The position numbers and the translations under genes are program-made. Positions 1,219-22,553 of a stretch of DNA of 56,220 nt are shown here, in pieces. The stretch lies in assembly GCA_023544645.1 (NCBI GenBank), contig JAMJFO010000019.1:1-56220 (forward strand), given 5' to 3'. The stretch's first letter is position 1, and each line of letters begins with the position of its first letter. The DNA comes from Desulfobulbaceae bacterium. Lineage in GTDB: Bacteria > Desulfobacterota > Desulfobulbia > Desulfobulbales > Desulfobulbaceae. The notes under the pieces were generated by a model. It had not been told where the DNA came from, did not search any database, and saw only the letters and a program-made list of their open reading frames with translations.

Positions 1219-1222
1219 TATA

Positions 1223-2113
1223 ATGCGAATATCACTCCTCACCATATTGATTATATTTTTATTCAGCGCAACGTCCTTTGCCGCGAGTCCGGTAAGAATA
1301 AAATTCGTGCAGTCGGTCTATGACGATGGCAAAGAAACCGGTCTGAAACATCCAGAAGGAGCGGCATGCGGTGCTGATTATTTTATTGTTGCTGATACTG
1401 GAAACAACAGGCTGGTAAAATATACGCTTTCAGACAGGGTCGCGAAAGCGGTAGAACCTGAAATGCCGATTATTACTCCGATTGCTGTCCAGGTGAACAC
1501 CAGGGGTGAAATCTATGCCCTGGACAGCCGGGACAGGCGTATTGCGATGTTCAATGCCAATGGAACGGAAAAGGGATATCTTTCCCCCAAGGGTTCTCCG
1601 GTGGCACGGAAAATGATACCGCGAAATTTCAAGATCGACCGCAACGATAAAATTTACATTCTCGACCTTTCCGATGACTTGGTTCTGATTCTCGATCCTG
1701 ATGGCAACTACCTCAGACATATCCCCTTGCCCGAGCAGGCTGGTTCCTTTTCCGATCTTGCCGTGGACAGCCGGGGAACTGTTTTTGTGGTCGTCAGTAC
1801 GAAAGTTGCCGTGTATTCGGCTGCGCCTGACGCTGATACTTTTTCCCTGCTGTCCCAGGGAATACGTGAGTACGCAAACTTTCCGACAAGCATAGCCCTC
1901 GACAAAAGCGGCATAATTTACCTGGTGGACAAACACGGCGGCAGCCTCATCATGTTGAACCCGGACGGTTCTTTTCTGGGACATAAATTCGGCTACGGCT
2001 GGAAAGAATCCCAGTTTTATTATCCTACCGACTTATGCATCAGCGAAAGTGGCAATTTTATAATTGCCGACCGCGGCAACAGCCGCATTCAGATATTTGC
2101 ATCGGAAGAATGA
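1223..2113 (+). CDS. Secreted NHL-repeat beta-propeller protein
   Basis: A 296-residue protein starting at ATG 1223, 7 bases after a strong GGAGG site. The frame is open further upstream, but that part only shadows the cytochrome gene. Residues 1-22 form a Sec signal peptide (MRISLLTILIIFLFSATSFA). The rest holds NHL-type blades: repeated G-x-x-F/I-V-A-D-x-G/N-N-R segments such as YFIVADTGNNRLVKY near residue 55, YALDSRDRRIAMF and FIIADRGNSRIQIF at the C terminus. NHL propellers are usually ligand- or protein-binding scaffolds, and no catalytic residues were recognised. It lies 4 bases after the 16-haem cytochrome, so it is probably co-transcribed and may be its structural partner (inference). 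Confidence 0.88.
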   Translation: MRISLLTILIIFLFSATSFAASPVRIKFVQSVYDDGKETGLKHPEGAACGADYFIVADTGNNRLVKYTLSDRVAKAVEPEMPIITPIAVQVNTRGEIYALDSRDRRIAMFNANGTEKGYLSPKGSPVARKMIPRNFKIDRNDKIYILDLSDDLVLILDPDGNYLRHIPLPEQAGSFSDLAVDSRGTVFVVVSTKVAVYSAAPDADTFSLLSQGIREYANFPTSIALDKSGIIYLVDKHGGSLIMLNPDGSFLGHKFGYGWKESQFYYPTDLCISESGNFIIADRGNSRIQIFASEE

Positions 2114-2353: not shown

Positions 2354-2947
2354 TTACCCCTGTGGGAGATTGAAAAGTTCCCGGGTAATGCGGTCAGGCT
2401 CCCCCTTGCATGCCAGGGCATCAATTTCGAAATTTCCCGTCATGCTGTATATTTTCAAAAAGCCGGCTTTTTGCAGTGCTTTCAAAAGCGATTTTTGGGT
2501 AAAACCGGTTTTATGGGCAAAAAAATCCTGGCCGCTTTGCTCAATCTCGATGCTATAACCATACAATACATCGAGAACCATAATCGACCCGGCAGGTGAT
2601 TGGTAAAGTACGTCATCGATATCCAGATCCCGCTGAATTGCGACTCGCATCACTTCATGGATGTCTGGTACCCGTATTTGGGCAAACCCGCCATCCTTGA
2701 GAACATGTAAAAAACCAGCCAGGACCCTTTTCACTTCGTGCCGGTAGTAGTGCTCAAGGTTATGCGAACAATAAACCGCGTCAAACTGTCCGGCGTCAAG
2801 TTCTGCAAGATTACGTGCATCACAAACAATATCCGGCGAGCCTTTCGGGTCGATATCGAGTAATACATGCTCGAACTCCGCATACTGAGGCGGCAGTGAA
2901 ATTGTTTTACTATTCCCTCCGACGTTTAAAACCTTTTTCATGTGCAT
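2354..2947 (-). CDS. Class I SAM-dependent methyltransferase
   Basis: A 197-residue small methyltransferase. An N-terminal VLNVGGNSKTISLP segment stands at the motif I (SAM-binding) position. LLDIDPKGSPDIVCDARNL carries the acidic ribose-binding and motif II region, and FDAVYCSHNLEHYYRHE is the typical Methyltransf_11 'SHxLEH' motif, followed by LKDGGFAQIRVPD. The substrate is not evident. It is the last gene in the direction of transcription of the TPR-enzyme island, 57 bases after the TPR-glycosyltransferase, so it may act on the same target (inference). The motif I glycine pattern is slightly unusual (NVGGNS instead of DxGxGxG), but the later motifs are clear. The start is ATG 2947; an in-frame ATG two codons later is equally possible. 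Confidence 0.8.
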   Translation of the reverse strand: MHMKKVLNVGGNSKTISLPPQYAEFEHVLLDIDPKGSPDIVCDARNLAELDAGQFDAVYCSHNLEHYYRHEVKRVLAGFLHVLKDGGFAQIRVPDIHEVMRVAIQRDLDIDDVLYQSPAGSIMVLDVLYGYSIEIEQSGQDFFAHKTGFTQKSLLKALQKAGFLKIYSMTGNFEIDALACKGEPDRITRELFNLPQG

Positions 2948-3004
2948 TCCTTCCTGTTATCTGAAATGAAATTTTTTTCAGCCTGACCAGCATATGAACA
3001 TGTT

Positions 3005-5068
3005 TCATCGTTTTTCCTCTAAACTTCTCCACATTCCCCACAGTGCCGCTTCGAAATTCCGAGCAAACCGGGTGCTGTCGCATAAGGGTGAGGCCAGCAA
3101 CTGCTCTCGTAATCCGGCCCGAAGGCGGGCCAGTTTTTCCAGGTCAGCCGCATGGGTAAGGGCTTTCCCCACATAATCCGCATCATTTTCTGCAATCCAG
3201 TCAGCCAGGCTTGCACAGGTAAGCATGCCCGCACCCTGACGGGCAACCATCGTATTTCCAGCAAGAGTCAGGGTAGGCACCCCCATCCATAACGCTTCAC
3301 AGGTAGTTGTCCCCCCGGTAAAGGGAAATGTATCAAGAATAATATCAATATCGGCATGGGCTGCCAGATATTCCACCCGTGGGACGGATTGTTCCAGAAT
3401 TACCCGTTCAGGGGCAATGTTGTTTTGCGTCAAACGCTGTAGCAACTGCTCCCGGACAGTCGGGGAGGAAAGCTGCCGGTTCTGCAGCCGCAGCCTCGCC
3501 TGCGGCATTTCCTGAAAAATCCGTCCCCATGCTGACAACACTTGATCATTTATCTTGGATAAACTCTGGAAGCTCCCGAAAATGACGTAACCGTTTCGCA
3601 ATGCCGGTAATGGGGATAACATCAAATCTGCACTCACCGCTGGCGGAGAGAAGCAAAACCTTGTTTCAGGGAGGTACCATACCTTCTCAGTAAATTGCGC
3701 CTGGTGCAACTCCGGAACGGATATTGGGTCAGTTAACAGATAATCTATTTCGGCCATGCCGGTGGAGGAGAAATACCCCAGCCAGGCAACCTGGACCGGC
3801 GCCGGCTTCCAGGCGAAAACCGGCAAACGGTTGTGCCTGGTGTGTCCGGCAAGATCGAACAGGATATGCACGCCGTGGTCATGGATCAGCCCGGCGGCGG
3901 CTTCGTCGTCTAAATCCGTCAAGGGTTTCCAGGAAGCAAAGCGAGGACGGATGCGGGCGGTAAGTTCATCCTCATGGTTTTGGGTCGGATAGGCAACCAG
4001 TTCGATCTGCGATGAGTCAATGTTTGCCAGCAGATTTTCCAGGAAATATCCTACCGGGTGGTTCCGCAGATCGCCTGACACCATGCCAATCCGAAGGCGC
4101 CCAGGTTTGGTGGAACAGGTCCAGTCTGCAAAACGTTTACTGACCTTTTTTGCAGCATTTCTCCCAAAGCGACGGGCTTCATTGAGGTATTCGACAATAG
4201 ACAGGCGAGGAAGATAATTCAGGCACATCAGAAGGTTGCTGTGCGTCTCGGGATAACCCGGTTTCAAGACAATCGCCCGGCGAAAGCAGGCAACCGCCTC
4301 TTCCAGCCGGCCTTGTTCCCTGAGGATAATCCCCAGATTATTGAGGGCTTCGGCAAGGTCCGGTTTCAATGTAAGGGCCTGGCGGTAGCAGGCAGCCGCC
4401 TCGTCCGGATAACCCTGTTCGTTGAGGATGATCCCCAGGTTGTAGTGTGCTTCGGCATAATCAGGCTTTGCGGTGAGCACCTGGCGGAAGCATGCTGCCG
4501 CCTTCTCCAGCCTGCCCAGATCCTTCAAAGTAATTCCCAGATTGAAGTGCACCTGCACAGAATCGGGTTTCAAGTCGAGCGCCTGCTGGTAGCAGGCAAC
4601 TGCCTCGTTCAGCCTGCCCATATCATAAAGGGCAATCCCCAGGTTGTTGTGCGCTTCGGCATAATCAGGGCTCAATTCAAGCACCCGGCGGAAACTTCCA
4701 GCCGCCTCGTCCAGCCTGTTCTGCTCGAAGAGGATCTTTCCCATATTGAAATGTGCCTGGACGTAATCGGGTCTGACGCGAACTGCCCTGCCGATCAGGT
4801 CAACACCGATCCCGCTCTGCCCGCTTTGATGCGCAAGCAGGCCCAAAAAATGTAACGCTTCCGGGTGATTTGGTTCAGTTTGGAGTATCTGTCTGTACAG
4901 GGCTTCCGCCTCGGGCAGGCGTCCAACTCTATGAAAGGCCAATGCCTGTTGCATTGCCCTTTGGTGTAAGGATATTTCCTGCTGCCCAGTCGCCTTTTTG
5001 CTTTTCTTTGGCTTAACTGATTTATGTTTGAGTTTTTTATTTTTTTTAGCCATTACAAGAGCGTTCAT
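3005..5068 (-). CDS. TPR protein with O-GlcNAc-transferase-like (GT41/SPINDLY) domain
   Basis: A 687-residue protein. A lysine-rich leader (about residues 6-27) is followed by about eight TPR units (about 30-290; repeats such as YAEAHNNLGIALYDMGRLNEA). The C-terminal GT41 domain starts near 320 (LRIGMVSGDLRNHPVGYFL). GT41 marks are visible: NHP after the first strand, DLAGHTRHNRL (the position of a catalytic-site histidine in OGT), SLSKIN with the UDP-contact lysine, and LDTFPFTGGTTTCEALWMG. The family transfers GlcNAc or fucose from nucleotide sugars to Ser/Thr of proteins bound by the TPR arm; the sugar and target here are unknown. The first ATG (5068) is used; the ATG five codons later, MAKKNKKLK, is at least as likely. 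It belongs to a minus-strand series of TPR enzymes, separated from the next upstream member by repeats and an IS stub. Confidence 0.9.
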   Translation of the reverse strand: MNALVMAKKNKKLKHKSVKPKKSKKATGQQEISLHQRAMQQALAFHRVGRLPEAEALYRQILQTEPNHPEALHFLGLLAHQSGQSGIGVDLIGRAVRVRPDYVQAHFNMGKILFEQNRLDEAAGSFRRVLELSPDYAEAHNNLGIALYDMGRLNEAVACYQQALDLKPDSVQVHFNLGITLKDLGRLEKAAACFRQVLTAKPDYAEAHYNLGIILNEQGYPDEAAACYRQALTLKPDLAEALNNLGIILREQGRLEEAVACFRRAIVLKPGYPETHSNLLMCLNYLPRLSIVEYLNEARRFGRNAAKKVSKRFADWTCSTKPGRLRIGMVSGDLRNHPVGYFLENLLANIDSSQIELVAYPTQNHEDELTARIRPRFASWKPLTDLDDEAAAGLIHDHGVHILFDLAGHTRHNRLPVFAWKPAPVQVAWLGYFSSTGMAEIDYLLTDPISVPELHQAQFTEKVWYLPETRFCFSPPAVSADLMLSPLPALRNGYVIFGSFQSLSKINDQVLSAWGRIFQEMPQARLRLQNRQLSSPTVREQLLQRLTQNNIAPERVILEQSVPRVEYLAAHADIDIILDTFPFTGGTTTCEALWMGVPTLTLAGNTMVARQGAGMLTCASLADWIAENDADYVGKALTHAADLEKLARLRAGLREQLLASPLCDSTRFARNFEAALWGMWRSLEEKR

Positions 5069-5173
5069 GAAATAATTTGATGAGCATCATTCCTCAACCA
5101 TTTTGTTTTGTGGTTACCAACAACCCTCAGCTTCAAAATTTCCATGGTTTGTATCCGACGGATTTGGGTGTTT

Positions 5174-5264
5174 CTGTCATTTCGACCGCAGGGAGAAATC
5201 TTGATCCGTTGAGGGAAAGATCTCTCACATACGTTTATGCCCTTAAGGGTATTCGAGATGACAG
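5174..5264. repeat. MITE-like inverted-repeat element, copy 1
   Basis: Begins CTGTCATTTCGA (5174-5185) and ends TCGAGATGACAG (5253-5264), which is the same 12 bases inverted with one mismatch. Inside are GAGAAATC and GATCTCTC arms, so the whole could fold. About 53 bases separate it from copy 2, in the same orientation. It has no coding capacity. Confidence 0.7.
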
Positions 5265-5316
5265 TGGCCATTGTCACCTGTGCTTTGAAGTAATGTCTAT
5301 TTTTGCCTCCGGCTTC

Positions 5317-5409
5317 CTGTCATTTCGACCGCGCAGAGAAATATCTTGATGCACAGAGAAAAAGATTTCTCACAGGATTTTATACTCATTAGGGTGTTCG
5401 AAATGACAG
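5317..5409. repeat. MITE-like inverted-repeat element, copy 2
   Basis: Begins CTGTCATTTCGA (5317-5328) and ends TCGAAATGACAG (5398-5409), a perfect 12-base terminal inverted repeat. It is about 93 bases long, like copy 1, and shares the internal GAGAAATA/GATTTCTC arms. It directly abuts the transposase stub that follows. Confidence 0.75.
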
Positions 5410-5429
5410 CGTTTTTCCAGGCGCTGGCA

Positions 5430-5597
5430 ATATACAAGCTGCACTGCCAGACGGTGGAGCCGGTGTTTGGGCAAATCAAATCGATCATCAACTTTCGGCA
5501 ATTCCTCCGGCAAGGGTTAAAGGATGAGCAGAATGAGTGGTCATTGATCTGTTTCTGTTCCAACTTGCTCAAACCGCACCGGGCAACATTCGGATAA
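5430..5597 (+). pseudogene. C-terminal stub of an IS1182-type DDE transposase
   Basis: The last about 55 codons of a transposase: YKLHCQTVEPVFGQIK, then INFRQFLRQGLKDEQNEWSL and a terminal NLLK segment, ending TAA at 5597. The order VEPVFGQIK, FRxFLxRGL and EWSLxCxxxNLLK is the conserved C terminus of IS1182/IS4-like transposases, including the region with the catalytic glutamate (VEPVFG). The N-terminal two-thirds are missing; the copy-2 repeat lies immediately upstream. It is a dead remnant inside the TPR-enzyme island, and nothing else was seen in 5598-5741. Confidence 0.7.
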
Positions 5598-5741
5598 AAT
5601 CAGCAAAAACAACAAGATAGAACAAAACAAGGAAAAATGCCTGATATCATTGAATCCTTCGCGCATCAACAAAGGGCAGCAGCCCACTCGAAAGTACCCC
5701 CGAGGTGGGTTTCCGCGGGAGGGGCAAACACTACCCACAGT

Positions 5742-8429
5742 TCATCCGCCATCTCCCTCACTATCGGCTGAGTAGGCGAACCCCTGTGCCTGAATAGAAT
5801 CGATAAGCATACATTTCCTGGCCCGGCCCCTGGAGCGGTCCTCAATCCAATTGGTTAACCTGTCTAAATTGTGTTTCACTGTCTTATCAGGGAAGGCTTG
5901 ACAAGCTTTTTCCAAATAATGAAGAGCTTTATCTATCTGGTTTCGGGCGAGGCAAATACATGCATGCTGGTTAAGCAGCATATTGTTGATCGGGAAGCCT
6001 AAATCTTCGGCGCGGTATAATGCTGCCGCAGCTTTATCCAATTGACCATGACGAAAATATGCATTTGCAAGTTCTACATGAACAATGGGCAATTCCGGCA
6101 AATGGGCCAGAACAGTTTCCCGTTCCTCTATTGTATATTCAAAGCCATAAATATTTCCAATGCCGCAAAGTACATAATGAAAAACAGTTTCAAAATCTTT
6201 ATCGCGCCCTTTTACTACAGATAGTTCATAACAATCGTTTCTGAATAATATATCCGCAGTCAACCCCTGGTTTCTGCAAACATGCTCCCAGTCTTCCGTT
6301 CCCGGCAGAAATTGCAGTGGAGTGAGGTCGTAGCTGTTGGGCCGGCCGGACCGGATCAGGTCAATGCTCTGGTTTATTGAATCCGGGGTTTCACCCCGAT
6401 TACCGAGTATCATGAAGTAATGAATATGCATGCCATACTTTCTGGCAGCACGTGTCAACTGCAGGACCATTGCCGGAGTAGTTTTTTTATGCATCATATC
6501 CAGTATTTCCTGCGATCCTGATTCCACCCCGATGAATATTGTCTGGCAGCCTGCCAGCCTCATTTTGCGCAGCATTCCATCATCCAAAGCATCTGCACGG
6601 GTGTGGCAGTCCCAAAGGAAGTTCATTTTATTATCAATGATCGCGTCGCATATCTTCACTGCCCGTTTTTGATGCGCGGTAAACGTATCATCTGCTACCA
6701 TAAGGTATGGCACCGGCAGCCGGGCCAATGCTTTCTCGATAGTGCTCAGGCAATATTCAGGAGAATAAAAACGCAGCCTCTTTCGCCACAAAACGGGATT
6801 AGCGCAAAACGTGCACTTGGACGGGCAGCCACGCGAAGTCATAACAAAAGCACTACTATAATAGTCAAAGGGCGATACCAGCGTGTCAAGGTCATTGACA
6901 AAGGGGCGACATGGTCCGATTGTGACATCTTCATCCTTTCGCCAGGCCGTACCCGGTATTCCAATGGCGGGCCGGTTGGAACCTACATGTTCCAGCAGCT
7001 CCATGAAAGTCTCTTCGCCTTCCCCGATAACCACGGTGTCGATTTCACGGTAGTATCGTAATGTTTCAAGGGGCAGAATTGTCGCGAAAGGACCGCCGAC
7101 GGTAATATGGGCTTTTGGATGATGTTTCCTGATGGCCGCACAAACCGCGCCTGTACCCCGCCGGTTGGAATCGTAAGCGGAAATTCCATACACGTCGGCT
7201 TTGGTTGCACCAATCAGTGAAACTACATCTATCCAGGGAGCATCAGAGAGGTTGTATACGCTTACCGTATGCCCTCCATTTTCTGCCTGAGCAGCGATGG
7301 ACAGTAAACCTTGCGAGATAGTTTTACGCTCTTCGGTAACGTCGAGAGATCCGAAAGTGCTGGCGGGCGGACCAAACGGCATACCCCTTTGTATATCCAG
7401 GTCAGCAGATGGTATTTGCCAGGGAGGGGGATAAATGAAAACAATGCGCAGTTTTTTTGCCGCACTTTGAGCTGCATTACCAGAAGAATCATTTTCAGAA
7501 GACGATGCAAGGGGAGCGGAAGGTATTACATACTTTTTCTCAAGCAGCTCTGCATACGACGACTCCAGAGGCAACTTTATTCTGTGCTTCAGGGATTGGA
7601 CCTGCTCTTCGGTAAAGTCGGCTGCAGGATACTTGGGCCCGCGTACCAGATCGGAATCTATCAGTAAGGGATGAGTCACCCGTTTCAATGCTTCCTGCCA
7701 ATCCTTATATTTGAGTGACAGTTTCCAGTTTGCCAGCGCCTCATTCAAATAACCACGTTCTTTAAAAATGTTGCCCAGGTTCTCGTATGCTTCTGCATAT
7801 TGTGGCCTGATTTCCAGGGCGCGGCGATAACAGTTTTCCGCTTCATCCAGACGGCCGAGCATTTGCAATGCATGACCAAGGTTATAGTGTGCCGCAGCTA
7901 CATTCGGATTGAGATCTATGGCCCGGCGGAAACTTGCTTCCGCTTCATCCAGACGACCCTGCGCCTGGAAAATATTACCAAGATTGTTATGGGCGATGAC
8001 ATCATCAGGCCTATATTTCAATGCAAGGCGGCAATGGTTTTCCGCCTTTTCATAACTGGCCATCTCAGAGTAAATCAGGCCCAGATTACTGTGCAGCACC
8101 GGATCTTCCGGTAACAGGCTTACTGCTTTCAGCAGAGAGTCTAACGCTTCTTCTTTTCGTCCCTGCAACAGGACAGCAGTGCCCAGTATCTTCCAGGCAA
8201 AACCAGAGTCAGGGAAACGCTCTGTAATTTTCCGCGCACGAGTTGCTGCGTCCGCGTAGCACCCCTGTTGCATCAATATCACCAACTGCTGAATCCTTTC
8301 AGGAGATGGCTCTGCAGGCGGGTGGGCAGCCATTGACCCGGGCAGATTTGCGGATTGCCCATGATTGTTCCCGGCCCCTTGTTGCGTTCGGGCTGTTGAT
8401 GATTTTCTTTGTAATGATTTTTTTTTCAA
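5742..8429 (-). CDS. TPR / B12-binding / radical SAM protein with C-terminal TPR
   Basis: An 895-residue protein if started at TTG 8429 (MKKKSLQRKSS), which has AAGAGGT 5 bases upstream and restores the lysine-rich leader seen in the neighbouring TPR enzymes. The frame extends to an ATG at 8549 (935 aa), but those 40 residues look non-coding. Order: leader; TPR units about 45-235; cobalamin-binding Rossmann domain about 330-470 (ISAYDSNRRGTGAV, ITVGGPFAT, IGEGEETF); radical SAM core from about 510 with the cluster motif RGCPSKCTFCANP (CxxxCxxC); then more TPR-like helices about 780-870. B12-dependent radical SAM enzymes typically methylate unreactive carbon or phosphorus; the substrate here is unknown. 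Placement between two TPR-glycosyltransferases suggests a shared protein or glycan target (inference). Confidence 0.88.
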   Translation of the reverse strand: MKKKSLQRKSSTARTQQGAGNNHGQSANLPGSMAAHPPAEPSPERIQQLVILMQQGCYADAATRARKITERFPDSGFAWKILGTAVLLQGRKEEALDSLLKAVSLLPEDPVLHSNLGLIYSEMASYEKAENHCRLALKYRPDDVIAHNNLGNIFQAQGRLDEAEASFRRAIDLNPNVAAAHYNLGHALQMLGRLDEAENCYRRALEIRPQYAEAYENLGNIFKERGYLNEALANWKLSLKYKDWQEALKRVTHPLLIDSDLVRGPKYPAADFTEEQVQSLKHRIKLPLESSYAELLEKKYVIPSAPLASSSENDSSGNAAQSAAKKLRIVFIYPPPWQIPSADLDIQRGMPFGPPASTFGSLDVTEERKTISQGLLSIAAQAENGGHTVSVYNLSDAPWIDVVSLIGATKADVYGISAYDSNRRGTGAVCAAIRKHHPKAHITVGGPFATILPLETLRYYREIDTVVIGEGEETFMELLEHVGSNRPAIGIPGTAWRKDEDVTIGPCRPFVNDLDTLVSPFDYYSSAFVMTSRGCPSKCTFCANPVLWRKRLRFYSPEYCLSTIEKALARLPVPYLMVADDTFTAHQKRAVKICDAIIDNKMNFLWDCHTRADALDDGMLRKMRLAGCQTIFIGVESGSQEILDMMHKKTTPAMVLQLTRAARKYGMHIHYFMILGNRGETPDSINQSIDLIRSGRPNSYDLTPLQFLPGTEDWEHVCRNQGLTADILFRNDCYELSVVKGRDKDFETVFHYVLCGIGNIYGFEYTIEERETVLAHLPELPIVHVELANAYFRHGQLDKAAAALYRAEDLGFPINNMLLNQHACICLARNQIDKALHYLEKACQAFPDKTVKHNLDRLTNWIEDRSRGRARKCMLIDSIQAQGFAYSADSEGDGG

Positions 8430-8754
8430 AGTCTTACCTCTTATGCCGGCATGGATAAAGTTGTTTATCCCGGTTCCCCAGCAGAATCTGTGGATAATCT
8501 TTGGTTCCGGTAAATCACCAGACGTACCATACAGGGCGAATTTCAACACCTCAGAGCCCGGTGAAAAACTATGGTAAAATTATCAGCTTATTTCATTGTA
8601 TCTACGTAATTATATTTAAACAACCAATATCAACACTCGTGCTCACAGCAATCTTTCAGCGTCCTGTTGATTCCCGTGATTGCTGCTGTTTCCTAAACAA
8701 TTTATACCCTTCCCTGACAGCCTGCCTCCTCAAATTAATGATAAAAAAACCAAT

Positions 8755-10722
8755 TCAACCCTGCCATGTCTTCCACATCCGGCCATAGGCAGTTTCCAAG
8801 TCCTTTGTGAAACCAGGCACATCACAAATCGGGGAGTTTATCATCCGCTGCCGCATGGAAAGGCGTAAATTATTCAGTTTTTCTCTCTTATCTGCCAGAC
8901 TGGTCGCAATGTTAACATATTCCTCCCAGGTTTCTGCCGCCAGCTCAGGCAGGCCGATATTTTTGACAATTGCATATCCCATACGGGAAGCAAATGTTTC
9001 GCCCATTCTGGTCACCACAGGCACCCCAAGCCACAAAGCATCGCAGGTGGTCGTTCCCCCGTTGTAAGAGAAGGAATCAAAGGCAATGTCAATATCACTA
9101 TGAAAAGCCCAGTATGCGGCCAGGGCCATTTTTCCGTGAATGACCAGACGTTCCTTGCCTATGCCGTTGTCAATAAATTCGGCAAGGAGAGCGGACCGGG
9201 CAGACCCTCCTGGCACCCCTGCCATGGCAAGCCGTGATCCGGGTGTCTTTTTGAGGATTTCTATCATTATTGCAATCAGTTCAGGGGTGATCTTCGCGAA
9301 ATTGTTCGTGTAGCCGAAAGTTATGCAATTGTTGGCAAACGCGGGAGAAGGCTGCACATCAGGCATATCTGCCTGGGGGCGATAGCACCACCATAGATGA
9401 TCTGTAAAACGGTACAATTTTTCAGTAAAGTAGTTCTCACTGCCAGGAGGGCTGGCATCGATGCTCGTCAGGCGATAGTCCATGGTTTTCAAGCCTGTGG
9501 TCGCAATATCACCGAGCCAGCTCACCTGTAGAGGGGCAGGCTTTCGGGCAAAGACAAGAAGCCGGTTGCCGGCGGTATGTCCTGAAAGATCAACAAGGAT
9601 ATCAATCCGGTCGCTGCGTATGCGTTCGGCAAGTGCATTGTCCGACATTTTTTCGCACTGCAGCCAATGATCGCTCAATGCTTCACATTGTCTTGATATT
9701 TCATCATAATACTGACGGGAATAGTAACAGAAAATCTCAACCTTCGTCCTGTCATGGGCCTCAAGCACGGGCAGCATGAAAGAGGCAACAGGATGCGTAT
9801 TGAAATCCGCTGATACATAACCGATTCTCAATTTGCGTTCAGCCTCTTTCCTTTGAATTTTCAATCGAGGACAGGGAGGAACTGAGGTGTGTCTTCTTGC
9901 CCACTCACATGATTCCCGGTAGATTTCCTGTGGTGAAATATCCGGCAGATAATTCAAGGCAAATACTAAACCGGTATGCGCATCATAATTACCCGAATCA
10001 GCAGCAAGCGCCTCGCGATAGCAGGCAATTGCTTTTTCCTGTTCTCCCATAAGGGTATAAACATTAGCCATATTGGTATAGGCCTTTGAATAGCCTGGAT
10101 AAAGGGAGACAGCCCTGCGAAACATCTCCAGCGCTTCATCAAGTTTCAGCTGTTTTACCAAGGCATTGCCCAGGTTATTAAAACCTTCATATAAACCGGG
10201 ACTTAACTCTACAGCCTTATTGAGAAAAAAGAGGGCCTCATCAAGCTTTTCTTTTTTTGTCAAAGCGTTGCCAAGATTGTTGTAGGCAGAGGCAAAATCC
10301 GGCGCCGATTCTATGGCTTTTTGAAAACAGGCAATTGCTGCATCAAGCCTGCCCATTTCATCGTAAGCTGAGCCGAGATTCAAGTATGCCTGAGCATAGC
10401 CCGGGCGGAGATCTATACTTTTTTGATAAGACAGGGATGCCTTTTCAGGTTTTTTCTGATCAAGAAAGATGTTACCCAGGCTCAAATGGTAGACGGCAAA
10501 ATCCGGCCTGATGCGGATAGCCTTTCTGATCAGTTTCAATCCGGTTTCATGTTGACCAGTCTGATGGTAGAGTACCCCAAGAAGGTGATTGGCATCCGGA
10601 TGGTCCGGATGCGATTTGAGAATCCGCATGTAGATATCCATGGCTTCATTTAATCTGCCGTTTTTATGATGGCTGACTGCTATCTGAAGGAAATGGGGGA
10701 TTTCATTCTTTTGGTTCGACAT
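8755..10722 (-). CDS. TPR protein with O-GlcNAc-transferase-like (GT41/SPINDLY) domain
   Basis: A 655-residue second GT41-type enzyme. About seven TPR units cover residues 8-265. The catalytic part runs from LRIGYVSADFNTHPVASFM (about 290) through DLSGHTAGNRLLVF, FGYTNNFAKITPE (UDP-contact lysine position) and FDSFSYNGGTTTCDALWLG near 565. It differs from the copy at 3005-5068 in the N terminus (MSNQKNEIPHF, no poly-lysine leader), in its TPRs and in most catalytic-loop residues, so it is a paralogue rather than a recent duplicate and may use another acceptor. The start ATG has a modest CAGG site about 8 bases upstream. It follows the TPR-PRMT gene by 38 bases, consistent with an operon. The 325 bases to the next gene (8430-8754) show no gene or hairpin. 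Confidence 0.9.
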   Translation of the reverse strand: MSNQKNEIPHFLQIAVSHHKNGRLNEAMDIYMRILKSHPDHPDANHLLGVLYHQTGQHETGLKLIRKAIRIRPDFAVYHLSLGNIFLDQKKPEKASLSYQKSIDLRPGYAQAYLNLGSAYDEMGRLDAAIACFQKAIESAPDFASAYNNLGNALTKKEKLDEALFFLNKAVELSPGLYEGFNNLGNALVKQLKLDEALEMFRRAVSLYPGYSKAYTNMANVYTLMGEQEKAIACYREALAADSGNYDAHTGLVFALNYLPDISPQEIYRESCEWARRHTSVPPCPRLKIQRKEAERKLRIGYVSADFNTHPVASFMLPVLEAHDRTKVEIFCYYSRQYYDEISRQCEALSDHWLQCEKMSDNALAERIRSDRIDILVDLSGHTAGNRLLVFARKPAPLQVSWLGDIATTGLKTMDYRLTSIDASPPGSENYFTEKLYRFTDHLWWCYRPQADMPDVQPSPAFANNCITFGYTNNFAKITPELIAIMIEILKKTPGSRLAMAGVPGGSARSALLAEFIDNGIGKERLVIHGKMALAAYWAFHSDIDIAFDSFSYNGGTTTCDALWLGVPVVTRMGETFASRMGYAIVKNIGLPELAAETWEEYVNIATSLADKREKLNNLRLSMRQRMINSPICDVPGFTKDLETAYGRMWKTWQG

Positions 10723-10760
10723 GGGAAACCTGAAATAGCGATGAAAAAGAAGGTTGAGAT

Positions 10761-12479
10761 CTACTTTGCTTCAGAACTCAGAAAGAACCAGGGGGTGATG
10801 CGGTTGTGGGCAGCAGTGATCTGGATAACCTGTCCCGGTGTGACATCCATTGCATCGGGAAAAATATACAGGCAATGTGACCAGGCCTGGGCCGGATTTT
10901 TCACTGATGGATGGTTCTCAAAAACAACCGTGTCATCCATCTCCAGCCTGATCCACTGGATTATGCCGTAGCACCGTCCGGTTTTGCGCACCGGCACGTC
11001 TATGTTTTTTTTCTCTTGTGAGGGGATTCGCTCGGGTTCAGCAAAATCAAAGAAAAAAGCGCAGGTCTCATCAGACAGCATCTCGATGTTGAGATCATTC
11101 CTGAAGAGAATCTGTTTCCTGCTGACCATCGTATTGAATCTGCCCAGGTCAAAACCGTATACCTGGTCAACCCGGATATTCTTCTCGATGTCTGATCCGC
11201 CGAACAGGGCAAACTGAATGGAGCCGCGGGCCGGGATGATTCGACCTCCCGGTTTCAGAAGTCTCCGCCTGGCATCCTCGATGCTGGGCAGGACCCCCTC
11301 ACCGAGAAACTCACTGGATAATATCTCGGAAACCAGCAGATCGGCCCGTTCATCCATGTCTTTGCCGACTTCCAGTTTAGTGGACATCTTGTTGATTACG
11401 GTGACCGGCGGGGTGAAGCCGTTGTCAGCCACTATGGCCTGGGCAATCCCGGCAATTTCGGCAACCGCCTCGCAGGTTGTCACCTGCCGCGCTCCGAGCC
11501 GGGCGGACATCATGGCCAGCAGACCGGAGCCGGTGCCGATTTCCAGGACATGGGTATCGGGGGTAATCGCATTTTGCAGGGCGGCAAAGTAGGCGTCGTT
11601 TCTCGGAGAGTCGTTCATCATGGGCACATGCCACGAAGGAACCAGATGACCGAGCGCCTTGTTGAGGCCGTCGTGCGCCTTGATCCACATGGGGTCCAGG
11701 TCAAGGCATTGACGGTAGCTGGCGATGGCCTCGCTCAACCTTCCGCGCTTGAGCAGGGTATCCCCCAGACCGTTATGCGCCTGGGGGTAATCCGGTTTGA
11801 GCTTCACCGCCTGGCGAAAGCTTTCCTCAGCCTCGCCGGGGCGTTTAAGTTCCAGCAGAACAAAGCCGAGGTTAGAGTGCGCCTCGGCAAATCCCGAGTT
11901 GAAGACAACAGCCTGTCGATAGGCGGTTTCCGCTTCTTCAGTCCGTCCGAGTTCCTTGAGGGCATTGCCGAGATTGTTGTGGGCTTCGGCAAAATCCGGC
12001 TTGATAGTTATGGCTTTCCGGTAGGCGGCCACAGCTTCTTCAAAACGGCCGTATTCCAGCATGGTAATGCCGAGATTATTATGCGCCTGAACATAGTCAG
12101 GCTTGAGTGCTACTGCCTGGCGAAAGCCAGCTTCCGCCTCTTCCAGGCGCCTGAGCCCCAGGAAGGCGCTGCCGAGATTGTTGAGCGTCTGGGCATCGTC
12201 GGGGACCAACCGGAGGCACCGCGTAAAAGGCTCCACGGCTTCTTTATGCTTTCCCTGCATGAGTAAAAGGTTGCCCAGGGCTTTCCAGCCCAGGGGGTGA
12301 TCAGGCCAGCGCCGGACAGCTTCCCTGGCCTTCCGCTCAAAAAGATCCCATTTACCGGCTTGCATCAGGGCTGTCATTTCCTGCATGAATATGTTTGGTG
12401 GTCCCTGGTCAACCTTGATTTTTTGCCGGGACAGTCCGGATCGACGGGGGGAGGATACGAGTTTTTTCTTTTTTTTCAT
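10761..12479 (-). CDS. TPR protein fused to a PRMT7/PRMT9-like protein arginine methyltransferase domain
   Basis: A 572-residue protein: a basic leader MKKKKKLVSS, about seven TPR units (about 30-275), then a class I methyltransferase. Motif I is VLEIGTGSGLLAMMSAR (311-327). SEILSSEFLGEG (384-395) matches the double-E loop of protein arginine methyltransferases in its PRMT7-type form, followed by LPSIEDARRRLLKPGGRIIPA. The C-terminal part has AFFFDF, RKTGRCYGIIQWIRLEMD and, at the THW-loop position, AWSHCLYIFPD, again as in PRMT7. PRMTs methylate arginine guanidino nitrogens using SAM. The TPR-plus-PRMT arrangement recalls eukaryotic PRMT9 and is unusual for bacteria. It is the first gene in the direction of transcription of the minus-strand TPR island. 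Domain calls rest on motifs read by eye; the activity is inferred. Confidence 0.85.
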   Translation of the reverse strand: MKKKKKLVSSPRRSGLSRQKIKVDQGPPNIFMQEMTALMQAGKWDLFERKAREAVRRWPDHPLGWKALGNLLLMQGKHKEAVEPFTRCLRLVPDDAQTLNNLGSAFLGLRRLEEAEAGFRQAVALKPDYVQAHNNLGITMLEYGRFEEAVAAYRKAITIKPDFAEAHNNLGNALKELGRTEEAETAYRQAVVFNSGFAEAHSNLGFVLLELKRPGEAEESFRQAVKLKPDYPQAHNGLGDTLLKRGRLSEAIASYRQCLDLDPMWIKAHDGLNKALGHLVPSWHVPMMNDSPRNDAYFAALQNAITPDTHVLEIGTGSGLLAMMSARLGARQVTTCEAVAEIAGIAQAIVADNGFTPPVTVINKMSTKLEVGKDMDERADLLVSEILSSEFLGEGVLPSIEDARRRLLKPGGRIIPARGSIQFALFGGSDIEKNIRVDQVYGFDLGRFNTMVSRKQILFRNDLNIEMLSDETCAFFFDFAEPERIPSQEKKNIDVPVRKTGRCYGIIQWIRLEMDDTVVFENHPSVKNPAQAWSHCLYIFPDAMDVTPGQVIQITAAHNRITPWFFLSSEAK

Positions 12480-12624: not shown

Positions 12625-12662
12625 ATAAAAAAAAGGCCGGCGGAACAATTGTCCCGCCGGCC
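12625..12662 (-). terminator. Rho-independent terminator of the hexahaem cytochrome
   Basis: Perfect 9-base stem GGCCGGCGG/CCGCCGGCC (12635-12643 with 12654-12662) and a 10-base loop. On the minus strand it is followed by a run of eight T. It lies 56 bases past the cytochrome stop and insulates it from the TPR island. Confidence 0.9.
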
Positions 12663-12718
12663 CTCTCGCACTCAGTGCGGTTTCAGACTGCTGTAGGCTT
12701 ATGCTAAGCTAACAGACA

Positions 12719-13885
12719 TCAGTCCTGAACGTGGCACTTGTTACACAGCGAACGCTGGGCTTCGCCGTACTTGGCGACTACGTCGACGGCCACACCGTCA
12801 CCGTAGTAGGCGACACCGGTTGCAGAGATGTCAGTTGAATTGATCGATGATGAATGAGCAAGGAACTCGGTCTCAAAGTCCCAGCGGCCCATGTTGTTGA
12901 AGGCCGAGGCATGGGCGCGATGACAGCTCAGGCACATGACCTGCGAGGCCGCGTCGGCGCCGGCGGTGCTGGTTACGCCTGCCGTAACCAGGGTAGCCTG
13001 GTCAGCTGAACCGGTCTCAAAGGGGACCAGCGGGTCAAAGGCCGTTGCAGCGGTACCGGTAAAGTCGCCGGTGGCAACATAAGAGTTGTAGTTAACATCA
13101 TAGCCGTCCTTGCTCAGCAGTACCGCAGTGGGATGCTTGCCGAGCATGGAGTCGGGATCGGTAACCAGGTAATCGGTATGGCAGTTGGCGCACCACTCGG
13201 ACATGCCGGAGCCGTAGCGGACCTGGTAGCCGTTGTAATGATTGGACAGGGCGACGGGAGCGCCATTGGTGAAGGCAAAGCCGTCATTAATGTTGTGGCC
13301 GGCCTCGTACAGGGAGTCACCGAGGAGGCGGTAGTTGCCCTTGATGGTGCCGGCAGGGGCATCAGCAGAATAGGAGCCGGAAGCGCCGACCGGCAGAGAT
13401 CCGCCGGCAGTACCGTCAAGAACCTGGCCATGGGCGTCATGACAGCTGGTGCAGCCAAGCAGGGTGGCGTCATAGGTGCCGCCGGGCGCTGCTGTCAGGG
13501 TTGCGTCCGCGGCCATACCGAAGTCAGTGGCCACGATGTTATGACCGGCATTGTCGCCGGCATGAGTTGTGGTGACACGACCGGCAACCGTATACTCGTT
13601 GACCAGCCAGCCAAAGTCGCCGCCGCCGTTCAGGTTGGAGCCGTCGGTGCTGCTGATGTGATAGCCGCCTGAGCCAGCATGGCAGTTCAGGCAGGTGGAA
13701 CTGGCATCGGAACCTTTCATCAGGGCCTCGTTCGGGGTACCTGAAATCGGGTTTTCCGGCGAGTTATGCATGGAGTGACAACCGTCACAATGCGCGACAC
13801 CGCCGCCATGGAAGGCAAAGGCAGAAGTTGCTGCCATTGAGAACATGCCGACTGCGGCGATTAAAAAATACTGTTTCCCTTTCAT
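12719..13885 (-). CDS. Secreted hexahaem c-type cytochrome
   Basis: A 388-residue exported cytochrome. Residues 1-24 are a Sec signal peptide (MKGKQYFLIAAVGMFSMAAT, then SAFA). Six CXXCH motifs occur: CDGCH, CLNCH, CTSCH, CANCH, CLSCH and a C-terminal CNKCH, with following SMH/DAH/RAH histidines as in doubled-CXXCH domains. Long linkers rich in Gly, Ala, Ser and Thr separate the haems, more than in compact cytochromes c3. ATG 13885 has a strong GGAGG site 7 bases upstream. A near-consensus sigma-54 promoter lies about 130 bases upstream and a strong terminator follows, so it is a single-gene, tightly regulated unit. The physiological partner is unknown. The low-complexity linkers could be acceptors for the neighbouring TPR glycosyltransferases, but compartment mismatch makes that speculative. 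Confidence 0.93.
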   Translation of the reverse strand: MKGKQYFLIAAVGMFSMAATSAFAFHGGGVAHCDGCHSMHNSPENPISGTPNEALMKGSDASSTCLNCHAGSGGYHISSTDGSNLNGGGDFGWLVNEYTVAGRVTTTHAGDNAGHNIVATDFGMAADATLTAAPGGTYDATLLGCTSCHDAHGQVLDGTAGGSLPVGASGSYSADAPAGTIKGNYRLLGDSLYEAGHNINDGFAFTNGAPVALSNHYNGYQVRYGSGMSEWCANCHTDYLVTDPDSMLGKHPTAVLLSKDGYDVNYNSYVATGDFTGTAATAFDPLVPFETGSADQATLVTAGVTSTAGADAASQVMCLSCHRAHASAFNNMGRWDFETEFLAHSSSINSTDISATGVAYYGDGVAVDVVAKYGEAQRSLCNKCHVQD

Positions 13886-14012
13886 TGAATTTCCTCCAAG
13901 AAAAAATTGTTTTCCTCACCTCTCGGCGAGTCTCCTCGTTTTTGGTTTCCCAGATCAATTGCGTTTACTGAGATCTCAAGTCATGCCATATCGGCACCAT
14001 TGGCCTCTATAA

Positions 14013-14029
14013 GGCAAGACCCGTGCCAG
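14013..14029 (-). promoter_or_regulatory. Sigma-54 (-24/-12) promoter
   Basis: On the minus strand, positions 14029 to 14013 read CTGGCACGGGTCTTGCC. This matches the RpoN consensus YTGGCACGRNNNTTGCW at every defined position except the last. It points at the hexahaem cytochrome, giving a leader of about 115 bases. An NtrC-family activator gene lies 1.7 kb away. Confidence 0.85.
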
Positions 14030-14118
14030 AATAGAAAACTCATTACTTTCACAATAAATTCATATAGTTGTTAAAACGACCACCTTGAAGAAAGATTTCT
14101 TTTTTCTCGGTATATGGG

Positions 14119-14151
14119 GATTTCACCAGATCACCATTGGGTATTTCACCA
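14119..14151. promoter_or_regulatory. Candidate activator-binding direct repeats upstream of the sigma-54 promoter
   Basis: ATTTCACCA occurs at 14120-14128 and 14143-14151, 23 bases apart, about 95-125 bases upstream of the -24 element. This is the usual distance for enhancer sites of NtrC-type activators. The link to the nearby regulator is inference only. Confidence 0.35.
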
Positions 14152-14651
14152 ACACCAAGGAGCCAAATGAGAAAAAAGATCATGCTTGGAACAGCTTCCT
14201 GTTTTTCATTTCTCAATTTGATATTGTTTTGCCAAGGTCTCTAAATTTCCATCCTGCGTTTCAGGGGTAATCATATTTTCCATATGGGACGGCTTTGGGG
14301 TTTTCACCTGCCGAAGTAGCCAAATAACCAGACCAACGCCTTTTCCCAGCCAAACAACCTGTTTATTAAAAATTCATTTTATACCTGTTAACAGGCGCAT
14401 ACCCGTCAAATAAACTTTAAATCACCTCAGGTTTACTTTTTGCAGGACCAAAGCAGGAATGAAAAAAATGTACCTTCACTTGATGAGTGAAACAATTCGC
14501 TCTCATCGCTGTAAATCAGCGTCAAGGAGATACGAGAATTTTTTTTACCTGTTGAATAATTTTGCGCCCCTGCGCCTTGACCGAGAAGAGCCTGCAGGGT
14601 ATAATTATAAAAAATTTAATTACCACCTGTATTTACACAGATGAGAGAAGA
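14152..14651. other. AT-rich intergenic region without a recognised gene
   Basis: About 500 bases between the divergent cytochrome and REC-PilZ genes. Only short ORFs without convincing start sites or similarity were seen. It probably holds the promoter of the REC-PilZ gene, but no clear -35/-10 pair was found. Confidence 0.5.
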
Positions 14652-15341
14652 GTGAAAAAGCTTCTTATAATTGATGATGGACAACTTCTGTGCTATGGCC
14701 TGAGACGGGCATTGCATCAAGACCAGATGCAGGTTGACACGGTATCTTCTGTTAAAGAAGCTATAAGAACTCTTGATTCAAACAGTTACGATTTGTGCCT
14801 GGTTGATATTCGTTTTCCCGACGAAAGCGGATTCGAAACGGTAAAAACGATCAGGGACCGCTGGCCGGACATAAAAATCCTGCTCATGACTGCATGCGAC
14901 ATCACCCTTTATGAAAATTTTACTGAACTTATCGATATAGCCAGGAGCAACGGGGCCTGTCATTTATTATGCAAACCATTTGATTTGAAGCAGCTCAGAG
15001 AAGTAATCTCCCATGCATTGTGCGAGGACGGCCATGACGACTGGTGCGAGGAAAGTTTCATAATAAATGATGCCAGACGAAGCTCAACACGGAAGAAATG
15101 GTGCAAAAAATTCAATTTTTCCATGAGCGAAATCAAGGACGGGGAAGTCAAACGCAGCATCTTTCCGGCAGAATCCATCAATATAAATAGTGACGGGGTG
15201 GTGATAATAACATCCTGCTCCTTGAAACCAATGCAGGTCATCAGTTTTGATGAAGCGCTGGATCAAAAATCAGGCGTGGTTGTCTGGAGCAGCCTGCTTG
15301 AGGATAACCGGTACAAGGCCGGGGTACGTTTCGCCTACTAG
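14652..15341 (+). CDS. Response regulator with C-terminal PilZ-like domain
   Basis: A 229-residue protein from GTG 14652 (MKKLLIIDDG); the open frame upstream encodes no receiver residues. The receiver domain (1-120) has the acidic pair IDD, the phospho-acceptor aspartate in LCLVDIRFPD, a LLMTA segment and the lysine in CKPFD. Residues about 150-229 form a PilZ-like beta-barrel ending YKAGVRFAY, but the RxxxR motif that binds cyclic di-GMP is not clear, so nucleotide binding is uncertain. The gene converges on the NtrC-type regulator. Its TAG stop lies in the target-site duplication of the MITE that follows. It may link the local phosphorelay to motility or surface attachment (inference). Confidence 0.85.
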   Translation: MKKLLIIDDGQLLCYGLRRALHQDQMQVDTVSSVKEAIRTLDSNSYDLCLVDIRFPDESGFETVKTIRDRWPDIKILLMTACDITLYENFTELIDIARSNGACHLLCKPFDLKQLREVISHALCEDGHDDWCEESFIINDARRSSTRKKWCKKFNFSMSEIKDGEVKRSIFPAESININSDGVVIITSCSLKPMQVISFDEALDQKSGVVVWSSLLEDNRYKAGVRFAY

Positions 15342-15578
15342 ACAGTGTCCATCCAGAAATAAGGATTTTTGTTCGAGGTCAGGTAAGCGAGGAACGAGAC
15401 TCCGAGGCATGCGAAAAAAATTACCGCAGGCATATGTTTGATATCGGAGTCTACGCTTACCCCCGAGGATAATTTTTTAAGCATAACGAGGTAAGCGAGC
15501 TCGCGAGACTCCGGGAGATCGGGCAGGTAAGCGAGCCTGCGAGACTCCGAAAAGACCATTTCTGGATGGGCACTAGAC
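15337..15578. mobile_element. MITE-like element flanked by ACTAGAC
   Basis: Terminal inverted repeats AGTGTCCATCCAGAAAT (15344-15360) and ATTTCTGGATGGGCACT (15558-15574) match with one difference. The sequence ACTAGAC is present at both edges (15337-15343 and 15572-15578), as expected of a target-site duplication. Inside are three direct copies and one inverted copy of a module reading AGGTAAGCGAG...CGAGACTCCG. There is no coding capacity. Both neighbouring genes end inside the duplicated ACTAGAC. Confidence 0.8.
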
Positions 15579-16940
15579 AAGGTCATACTTCTTTACCTGA
15601 TAGCGAAGAGTATCATAGGTTATCCCCAGGAGTTTAGCCGCTTTTGTCTGATTATGATCCGCCATCTCCATTGCCTGCCTGATCAGATCCTTTTCCACCT
15701 CCTCCAGCGATAACCCTGTTTCCGGAAGGACAATAAAACGAGAATTGCGCCGTTCCGTATCCGGAGCAGTCAGTTTCGTTTCCATGCTCTCCAGTACGAC
15801 GAAACGTTCCAGGACATTGCGCAATTCCCGGACATTCCCCGGCCAGGCATATGAATAAAACTCTTTTTCCTTGTCCTTGGGGAGATCGCGGATATTTTTC
15901 TTGAAATATTTTGCCGCAAAAAGCCTGATAAAATGGCGCGTCAGCAACGGAATATCCTCCGGCCTCTCACGCAGGGGAGGAATCTGCAGATGAAAAGCGC
16001 TGAGCCGGAAATACAAATCCTCCCTGAACTCCTTGGCCTCCACGGCAGCTGAAAGATCCTTGTTGGTGGTGGCAATAACGGTCACATCGATGGGAAGATC
16101 AACCTTGCCCCCCAGTCTCCGGACCTTCCTTTCCTCCAGAACGCGCAGGAGCTTGCTCTGCAGATCGATGCGCATGTCTCCGATCTCGTCAAGAAGAATA
16201 GTGCCGCCGTTGGCCAACTCAAACATGCCCTTCTTGTCCGTTTTGGCGTCGGTAAAGGAATATTTGACATGTCCGAACAGTTCGCTTTCAATCAGGTTGT
16301 CCGGCAGGGCCGTGCAGTTTACCGTAATGTACGGTATGTAATCAGCATCCGTCGGTTGGCTGAGATAACGCATGTTATAGATGTAGCGGGCCAGCACTTC
16401 CTTACCGGTTCCCGACTCCCCGGTTATGAGGATGGTATCGGCCCCTGCCGCTGCCAGCTTATCCGCCTTGTCCAGAATATCCTTGATTGCCTGAGAATTG
16501 CCCACCATGTCCTGTTCGGCACAGGATGCCTCTGTTTTGCGGAGGTACTCAACCTCTTCCCGGAGTTTCGTTTTCTCCAGGATACGGTTGATGACCATCT
16601 TCACCTCATCAACATTGAAAGGCTTGGTAAGATAGTCGGCAGCGCCGAGTTTCATTGCCTTGATGGCGGATTCAGCGGTATCGTCAGCGGTCAGCATGAC
16701 CACCGGTGAAGCAAATTTTTCCTCTTTGAGCTGCTGCAGGACATCAATCCCGTTTATATCATTATCAAGATGAATATCCAGCAGCACCAGGTCGGGAAGC
16801 CACTCGATGATTTTCGGCACAATTCCCTTTGCGCTGCTGTGCACCTGGGTCTCATACCCTTCCTTTTTCAAGGACCTGGAAAGCATGGAGACTATGAGCT
16901 TGTCGTCATCAAGAAGAAAAATCCTTCCCTTGTTTTTCAT
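15573..16940 (-). CDS. Sigma-54-dependent NtrC-family response regulator
   Basis: A 455-residue activator: receiver (1-125; FLLDDD acidic residues, phospho-Asp in LVLLDIHLD, lysine in LTKPFN), AAA+ domain (about 145-375; Walker A GESGTGKE, Walker B ILLDEIGD, arginine-rich PPLRERPEDIPLL) and a Fis-type helix-turn-helix at the C terminus (TKAAKLLGITYDTLRYQVKK). The loop that contacts sigma-54, normally GAFTGA, reads YSFTDA, keeping the key Phe and Thr. The start ATG overlaps the end of the kinase gene by 4 bases (ATGA), showing a translationally coupled kinase/regulator pair. The sigma-54 promoter of the nearby cytochrome is the obvious candidate target (inference). Confidence 0.93.
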   Translation of the reverse strand: MKNKGRIFLLDDDKLIVSMLSRSLKKEGYETQVHSSAKGIVPKIIEWLPDLVLLDIHLDNDINGIDVLQQLKEEKFASPVVMLTADDTAESAIKAMKLGAADYLTKPFNVDEVKMVINRILEKTKLREEVEYLRKTEASCAEQDMVGNSQAIKDILDKADKLAAAGADTILITGESGTGKEVLARYIYNMRYLSQPTDADYIPYITVNCTALPDNLIESELFGHVKYSFTDAKTDKKGMFELANGGTILLDEIGDMRIDLQSKLLRVLEERKVRRLGGKVDLPIDVTVIATTNKDLSAAVEAKEFREDLYFRLSAFHLQIPPLRERPEDIPLLTRHFIRLFAAKYFKKNIRDLPKDKEKEFYSYAWPGNVRELRNVLERFVVLESMETKLTAPDTERRNSRFIVLPETGLSLEEVEKDLIRQAMEMADHNQTKAAKLLGITYDTLRYQVKKYDLV

Positions 16941-18403: not shown

Positions 18404-18420
18404 AAATGCGTACGCTGGAT

Positions 18421-22397: not shown

Positions 22398-22553
22398 AAT
22401 TTTTTAACCCATGATCATCATATTGCTGGATACCGTTCTATACCGCCTTTTGCGAAATAACAACCTGCATCTGCAAAAGAATTTTAGCGAAACGGTCGTC
22501 GCTCATAATAGCAAATACAGCAAATAAAAAAAGTGATACAGGTGAATACCCTT

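Follow-up and report, generated by a model that had tools for sequence, protein, structure and literature searches.

The closest described systems each share part of the arrangement reported here. FlmG, the flagellin O-glycosyltransferase of Caulobacter, is a cytoplasmic TPR-glycosyltransferase whose TPR domain binds flagellin, which is modified before export (PMC7591256), and HMW1C is a GT41 enzyme that modifies a secreted adhesin (PMC3012730). For extracellular cytochromes, cryo-EM has revealed surface glycans on OmcS and OmcE filaments that are thought to insulate them (PMC9473688); the literature searched contained no enzyme named for this glycosylation, and a dedicated search on glycosyltransferases of nanowires brought up no specific work. 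What cytochrome filaments do physiologically is itself debated (PMC11077965). OmcS ortholog identity across genera is hard to prove, and some OmcS-type paralogs are not established as wires (PMC12977616).

This study analyzed a 56,220-nucleotide stretch of DNA (hereafter the window), which is contig 64 of a 3.85 Mb Desulfobulbaceae genome, using evidence that is comparative throughout. The glycosyltransferases encoded in the window resemble FlmG in that they are predicted to be soluble and cytoplasmic, with N-terminal TPRs and a C-terminal GT-B domain, and GT41 genes of this order also adjoin flagellin genes; here, however, the candidate substrate is a Sec-exported multiheme cytochrome rather than flagellin, and a methyltransferase joins the set. 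As with HMW1C and the soluble N-glycosyltransferases, a GT41 enzyme would act in the cytoplasm on a secreted surface protein, but HMW1C has no comparably long array of TPRs, and its substrates are two-partner-secretion adhesins. SPINDLY, OGT and 5DJS share the TPR superhelix and the GT41 catalytic core with conserved motifs, whereas the modification performed by SPINDLY and OGT is eukaryotic, nucleocytoplasmic and regulatory. The arginine methyltransferase of the window has the TPR and PRMT architecture of PRMT9 and a PRMT7-like core with a double-E loop, but it is bacterial, has one catalytic module and a longer TPR arm, and is tied to an OmcS locus. Finally, the OmcS/OmcE nanowires of Geobacter have family members both in the window, where the neighbour is OmcS-family, and in relatives, where TPR enzymes adjoin OmcE-family genes; filaments have been seen in Geobacter, whereas filament formation in this order is a prediction from the genes.

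Gene content and catalytic domains

All five minus-strand genes that the initial annotation had described between positions 2354 and 12479 were recovered with the domains assigned to them, at E-values far beyond chance and in the order listed in Table 1. These genes do not make up a single tight operon, the row being divided by the ~670 bp gap between the GT41a and radical SAM genes, which holds a decayed transposase end (DDE_Tnp_1_6, E=7e-8) on the plus strand at ~5346-5597 together with GTCATTTCGA hairpin repeats. A RiPP precursor was considered and rejected, given this content of the gap, and no convincing precursor ORF was found there or in the other intergenic stretches.

Table 1. Features of the window that make up the TPR gene row and the surrounding cytochrome locus.
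Feature	Coordinates	Strand	Basis
Multiheme c-type cytochrome, truncated by contig start	37..1218	+	Doubled CXXCH; ~58% identical to 16-heme gene of conserved OmcS locus
NHL beta-propeller gene of OmcS locus	1220..2113 (ORF listed 887-2113)	+	41-42% identical counterparts, same position
Small class I methyltransferase (Methyltransf_11)	2354..2947	-	Pfam; without TPR
TPR-GT41a	3005..5068	-	Pfam TPR + Glyco_transf_41
Non-coding gap: degraded IS transposase fragment and GTCATTTCGA inverted repeats	5069..5741	.	
TPR-B12-binding-radical SAM protein	5742..8549	-	Pfam TPR + B12-binding + Radical_SAM
TPR-GT41b	8755..10722	-	Pfam TPR + Glyco_transf_41
TPR-PRMT (predicted PRMT7/PRMT9-like protein arginine methyltransferase)	10761..12479	-	Pfam TPR + PrmA/PRMT_C-type methyltransferase
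Strong intrinsic terminator, between OmcS-family gene and TPR block	12630..12667	-	
OmcS-family hexaheme outer-surface cytochrome, candidate nanowire subunit and candidate substrate	12719..13885	-	PDB 6EF8, E=8e-70
Response regulator of OmcS locus	14562..15341	+	
Sigma-54-dependent response regulator of OmcS locus	15573..16940	-	
Sensor histidine kinase of OmcS locus	16937..18403	-	
PhnD-like periplasmic binding lipoprotein of OmcS locus	18421..19380	-	

The two GT41 proteins, which are the only ones encoded in the whole genome, score 178 and 190 bits against Glyco_transf_41 (cut-off 25), and among solved structures their catalytic domains hit SPINDLY and the bacterial OGT 5DJS with E-values of 1e-70 or below. 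The NHP/THP histidine, the SKI/AKI lysine and the GGTTTC loop, which are catalytic and donor-site residues in OGT/SPY, are conserved in alignments to 7Y4I and 5DJS; both proteins are predicted GT41-family (OGT/SPY-like) glycosyltransferases with intact catalytic motifs. An origin by tandem duplication was rejected since the tree places the two in different lineages. The partner of GT41a in the tree is a GT41 from a different family (58% identity, support 100/100), its nearest relatives being GT41s of genome G116 (55-58% identical), one of which sits in a TMTC/GT2 glycosylation cluster (L208). GT41b, on a long branch, is placed among the GT41s that other OmcS loci encode (47% identity, support 88/93), and its similarity to HMW1C is weak (E about 1e-6).

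For the TPR-PRMT, the methyltransferase domain matches Trypanosoma brucei PRMT7 among solved structures (3.5e-35), and an AlphaFold model (pLDDT 91) comprises a full long TPR superhelix, a Rossmann methyltransferase and a PRMT beta-barrel, with PRMT9 (8RBK), itself a TPR-PRMT, as top solved match and 4M36 also matched. SAM motif I (LEIGTGSG) and the double-E loop (SEILSSEFLGEG), including both of its glutamates, align to TbPRMT7, and the alignment is weak near AWSHCLY, a putative equivalent of the THW loop, which fixes product type. The modeled protein is a predicted PRMT7/PRMT9-like protein arginine methyltransferase with intact catalytic motifs. A literature search on bacterial PRMTs gave nothing specific.

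The radical SAM protein (PF02310 and PF04055) carries its CxxxCxxC cluster motif as CPSKCTFC. The classical B12-binding motif is DxHxxG, which is also missing from many radical SAM relatives; because the window protein reads DSNRRG at this position, without the histidine, and many relatives are likewise without the motif, it was not classed as a methyltransferase. Its annotated GTG start is probably too early, with the true start near 8435, since the Lys-rich stretch typical of the starts of such enzymes begins ~38 codons in. A single-sequence structure model of this protein reached a pLDDT of 45 and was discarded.

The surrounding OmcS-type locus

The gene right upstream of the TPR block, which lies outside the interval that the initial annotation covered and was not reported there, has OmcS as its sole solved-structure match (residues 25-388) and contains six CXXCH motifs. 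Its product belongs to the OmcS family by its six hemes and full-length homology, filament formation being predicted, and it is the most informative neighbour of the TPR block. The strong terminator that separates the two means that co-transcription is not implied.

In relatives, where gene calls are ORF heuristics, the canonical OmcS locus runs from a PhnD-like lipoprotein, histidine kinase, sigma-54 regulator, response regulator and NHL propeller through one to three OmcS genes, a second propeller protein, an outer-membrane barrel candidate, a lipoprotein and a prolyl isomerase to 26- and 16-heme cytochromes and a second NHL protein. This locus is kept within and beyond the order, and both of its ends are present in the window, at 37-2113 and 12719-19380, on either side of the TPR genes. 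The accessory enzyme complement of OmcS loci varies between genomes; three loci (G078, G128 and G436) encode membrane proteins with C-terminal TPRs that appear TMTC-like, a label that is our own reading of their sequences.

Linkage of TPR enzymes to filament-cytochrome genes

Among the accessory genes that OmcS loci of the order carry, the TPR-PRMT is the most constant. It occurs in 9 of 146 genomes, each of which belongs to the 14 that encode a strong OmcS homolog (Fisher 3e-11), representing four families (f1, f3, f5 and f15) of related genomes. The two genes share a contig within about 21 kb in eight of these genomes, and the ninth case lies where a contig ends. Across 84,980 species scanned, the Desulfobacterota TPR-PRMTs form a single clade (support 100/98), and their genes lie in the OmcS locus, next to the regulators of that locus or at contig ends. 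Additionally, a TPR-GT41 gene is the immediate neighbour of the PRMT gene in the OmcS locus of genomes G000, G050, G109 and G130, three of the four pairs being from one genus, and in G128 a TPR-GT41 gene sits beside OmcS without a PRMT. Counted by genome, where sampling is partly redundant within genera, the co-occurrence of PRMT and GT41 is borderline (5/9 vs 39/146, p=0.057) and that of OmcS and GT41 reaches p=0.011. The filament-cytochrome genes are a stronger link than the enzymes are among themselves, a connection that the initial annotation had missed. Outside the order, GT41 is missing from 12 of 14 OmcS-bearing genomes and PRMT from most; therefore, these enzymes are not universal OmcS modifiers, and other enzymes must act there if the filaments are glycosylated.

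The pattern extends to other surface filaments. Among 50 GT41 loci of the order, 18 include a cytochrome of at least four hemes and 10 others a flagellin, compared with 3 and 0 of 19 control stretches, respectively (p=0.0025 for either); the cytochrome enrichment taken alone is weak (18/50 vs 3/19, p=0.09). Many of these neighbours are four-heme cytochromes, and the two tested are homologs of OmcE (PDB 7TFS, 7e-15 and 8e-16; 7TFS is described as OmcE in PMC12954529). Conversely, a TPR ORF lies within 3 kb of 12 of the 18 OmcE-type genes counted at E<1e-40, against a background expectation of 0.067 each (p about 7e-11, for genomes that are not independent). These TPR neighbours comprise GT41s, several TPR-sulfotransferases (PF13469), one TPR protein with a weakly GDSL-lipase-like C-terminus and one TPR-only ORF. 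Family f6 has a second GT41 gene that shares its strand with a 12-heme cytochrome gene and either overlaps it or lies almost directly against it. An FlmG-type arrangement, in which a TPR-glycosyltransferase gene adjoins a filament-subunit gene, was thus found in the order for OmcS-type, OmcE-type and flagellin genes.

Proposed role of the TPR genes

On the comparative evidence there is about an even chance that the TPR block serves as an accessory cassette for protein modification within a conserved locus for OmcS-type extracellular cytochromes, and that its TPR arms would recruit filament or conduit proteins before export. Each enzyme would be soluble and cytoplasmic, as judged from the lack of a visible signal peptide, and its N-terminal TPR superhelix would bind a new, unfolded, heme-free subunit, either an OmcS-family cytochrome or another exported conduit protein, which the C-terminal domain would modify ahead of Sec export, heme attachment and filament assembly. 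A sugar on Ser/Thr or Asn may come from GT41b and perhaps also from GT41a, and the PRMT may methylate arginine, either of that exported protein too or of a partner in the cytoplasm. A role of the GT41 enzymes in modifying filament or conduit proteins is, as a prediction from sequence, fairly well supported. We infer by analogy which substrates and which sugar are involved and what the modification would do for the filament, be it surface insulation, solubility or stability.

Alternative explanations

The clustering could be coincidental, with TPR repeats and mobile elements driving recombination so that the locus is a landing site for enzymes that serve unrelated processes. The IS remnant and repeats within the row are what such a history would leave, the enzyme complement differs from genome to genome, and in the Beta- and Alphaproteobacteria the PRMT family is widespread, mostly as solo genes elsewhere without cytochrome neighbours. 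Chance placement does not readily account, however, for an association of PRMT and OmcS across four families within a single PRMT clade, nor for GT41s and other TPR proteins beside OmcE-type genes far above background, and we consider this explanation improbable.

A cassette acting on exported proteins must also be weighed against one acting on the cytoplasmic regulators of the locus, in which modification of the response regulator or the sigma-54 regulator would tune conduit expression and leave the exported cytochromes unmarked. All of the enzymes appear cytoplasmic, and in a tenth genome (G005) the TPR-PRMT gene is directly beside the PhnD-HK-sigma54 genes with OmcS on another contig. Additionally, a comparison of OmcS proteins from PRMT-bearing and other genomes yielded no PRMT-specific conserved arginine that the window OmcS shares: one column has Arg in 65% of the proteins from PRMT-bearing genomes vs 4% of the others, and the window protein has Thr. 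OmcS is therefore not supported as the PRMT substrate, and marking of OmcS by the PRMT was rejected. Nevertheless, many OmcS loci have the same regulators without PRMT or GT41, and the GT41s and TPR-sulfotransferases that adjoin OmcE-type genes and flagellins do so where these regulators were not seen, which makes regulator modification distinctly unlikely; the exported-protein cassette remains our preferred reading.

The initial annotation had also suggested that the TPR arms are of shared origin. Scores among the four arrays of the window are indeed higher (105-190 bits pairwise, 36-39% identity) than those against ten further TPR proteins encoded in this genome, where the maximum is 97 bits. 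The PRMT array, however, is closest to the arrays of its own orthologs (58-66% identical), so that each array descends together with its enzyme; recent exchange between neighbours was rejected on this ground. The window arrays are thus one broad array type, inherited with the enzymes. Most of the TPR enzymes also have a Lys/Arg-rich N-terminal tail, with a median Lys+Arg fraction of 0.44 (n=35) vs 0.25 in controls (n=109; p=8e-15) in the densest 16-residue stretch within the first 60 residues, GT41b being an exception at 0.31.

The remaining members of the row have a different distribution. No ortholog of the radical SAM protein was found in 146 genomes of the order, its best relative being 34% identical, and it was rejected as a conserved partner on this basis; neither it nor the small methyltransferase has a counterpart in the related OmcS loci examined. 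Both look like private, late, lineage-specific additions, and would enter the proposed cassette as such. Separately, a locus in Sulfuritalea (L050) has a radical SAM gene that overlaps a TPR-PRMT gene, with three GT41 genes nearby.

These comparisons bear on the original proposal of a self-contained island, in which four TPR-armed enzymes act in succession on a single common protein or peptide, adding sugar, methyl and arginine-methyl groups. The genes are adjacent on a common strand, their arrays are alike and mostly preceded by basic tails, PRMT recurs with GT41 in four genomes and Sulfuritalea independently shows a comparable grouping, but the radical SAM and small methyltransferase genes missing from related loci, the separate GT41 lineages, the IS remnant that splits the row and the inheritance of arrays with their enzymes make a closed set of this kind quite unlikely. 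What survives of that proposal is the domain-level prediction of TPR-armed protein modifiers and the partial recurrence of PRMT with GT41; a fixed four-chemistry system is not supported, given the restriction of the radical SAM protein to this genome among those compared, the unrelated GT41 lineages and the borderline PRMT-GT41 co-occurrence.

Implications

Read as an accessory cassette of the cytochrome locus, the TPR enzymes stand repeatedly beside wire genes in relatives and are therefore candidates for the enzymes that decorate bacterial nanowires. More tentatively, the cytochrome nanowires of the order could be decorated by swappable TPR-armed cytoplasmic enzymes that add GT41 sugar, sulfate, arginine-methyl and possibly acyl and B12-radical modifications, with a shared basic-tailed arm and interchangeable chemistries that set insulation and surface properties. 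For nanowire glycosylation, the comparison provides named candidate genes that adjoin wire genes in several genomes, with FlmG as an experimentally tested precedent for the mechanism. If the TPR-PRMT acts on the OmcS locus, extracellular electron transfer would be linked to a PRMT9-like system of arginine methylation in bacteria.

TPR proteins in the window, at cytochrome genes and elsewhere

Within the window, two of the three secreted proteins tabulated below are paralogs, and the trio is placed past the regulators of the OmcS locus, the conserved extracellular-cytochrome gene set. The combination described in the initial annotation occurs a second time, free of cytochromes, in Sulfuritalea: TPR-PRMT is accompanied by several TPR-GT41 genes in L050 and L056, and in L050 additionally by a radical SAM gene that overlaps the PRMT gene.

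OmcE-type tetraheme cytochrome genes adjoin or neighbour TPR-sulfotransferases in the five loci tabulated for these enzymes, two of which also contain TPR-GT41. In family f6 of the order, a TPR-GT41 gene is overlapped or nearly abutted by a 12-heme cytochrome gene on the same strand (loci L211, L221, L224, L228, L241, L244, L249 and L250), and two GT41 genes, one at each cytochrome, are frequent in the OmcE-type loci of this family. Tandem GT41 domains, several per frame, were also seen in open frames of giant size (about 2,000-3,900 aa), several of which have flagellin genes nearby.

Features in the window, its own genome (G000) and other loci (L) or genome contigs (G:C)
Feature	Location	Remark
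Gap between GT41a and radical SAM gene	window 5069-5741	degraded IS transposase end, GTCATTTCGA hairpin repeats
Three secreted proteins	window 20166-20972, 21383-22189, 22533-23426	weak carboxypeptidase-regulatory-like domain matches
Further OmcS-like gene	G000:C29:3698-4069	partial
Distant OmcE-like gene	G000:C123:15738-16334	42% identity
TPR-PRMT, several TPR-GT41 genes	L050:1602-10923	Sulfuritalea
TPR-PRMT, several TPR-GT41 genes	L056:9422-16790	Sulfuritalea
TPR-sulfotransferase	L282:5196-6665	PF13469
TPR-sulfotransferase	L285:3159-4922	PF13469
TPR-sulfotransferase	L287:10350-12071	PF13469
TPR-sulfotransferase	L210:11451-13523	PF13469
TPR-sulfotransferases (two)	L216:2688-4328, L216:14793-16910	PF13469
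TPR protein, C-terminus weakly GDSL/SGNH-like	L288:10879-12435	adjoins OmcE-type gene
Giant multi-GT41 open frames	G143:C107, G065:C79, G158:C9, G086:C40, G115:C1	
TMTC-like protein	L139:6256-8400	within OmcS locus
TMTC-like protein	L152:12229-14355	within OmcS locus
TMTC-like protein	L165:4256	within OmcS locus

The TMTC-like proteins of the OmcS loci, which are multi-pass membrane proteins with C-terminal TPR, point to possible glycosylation on the periplasmic side.
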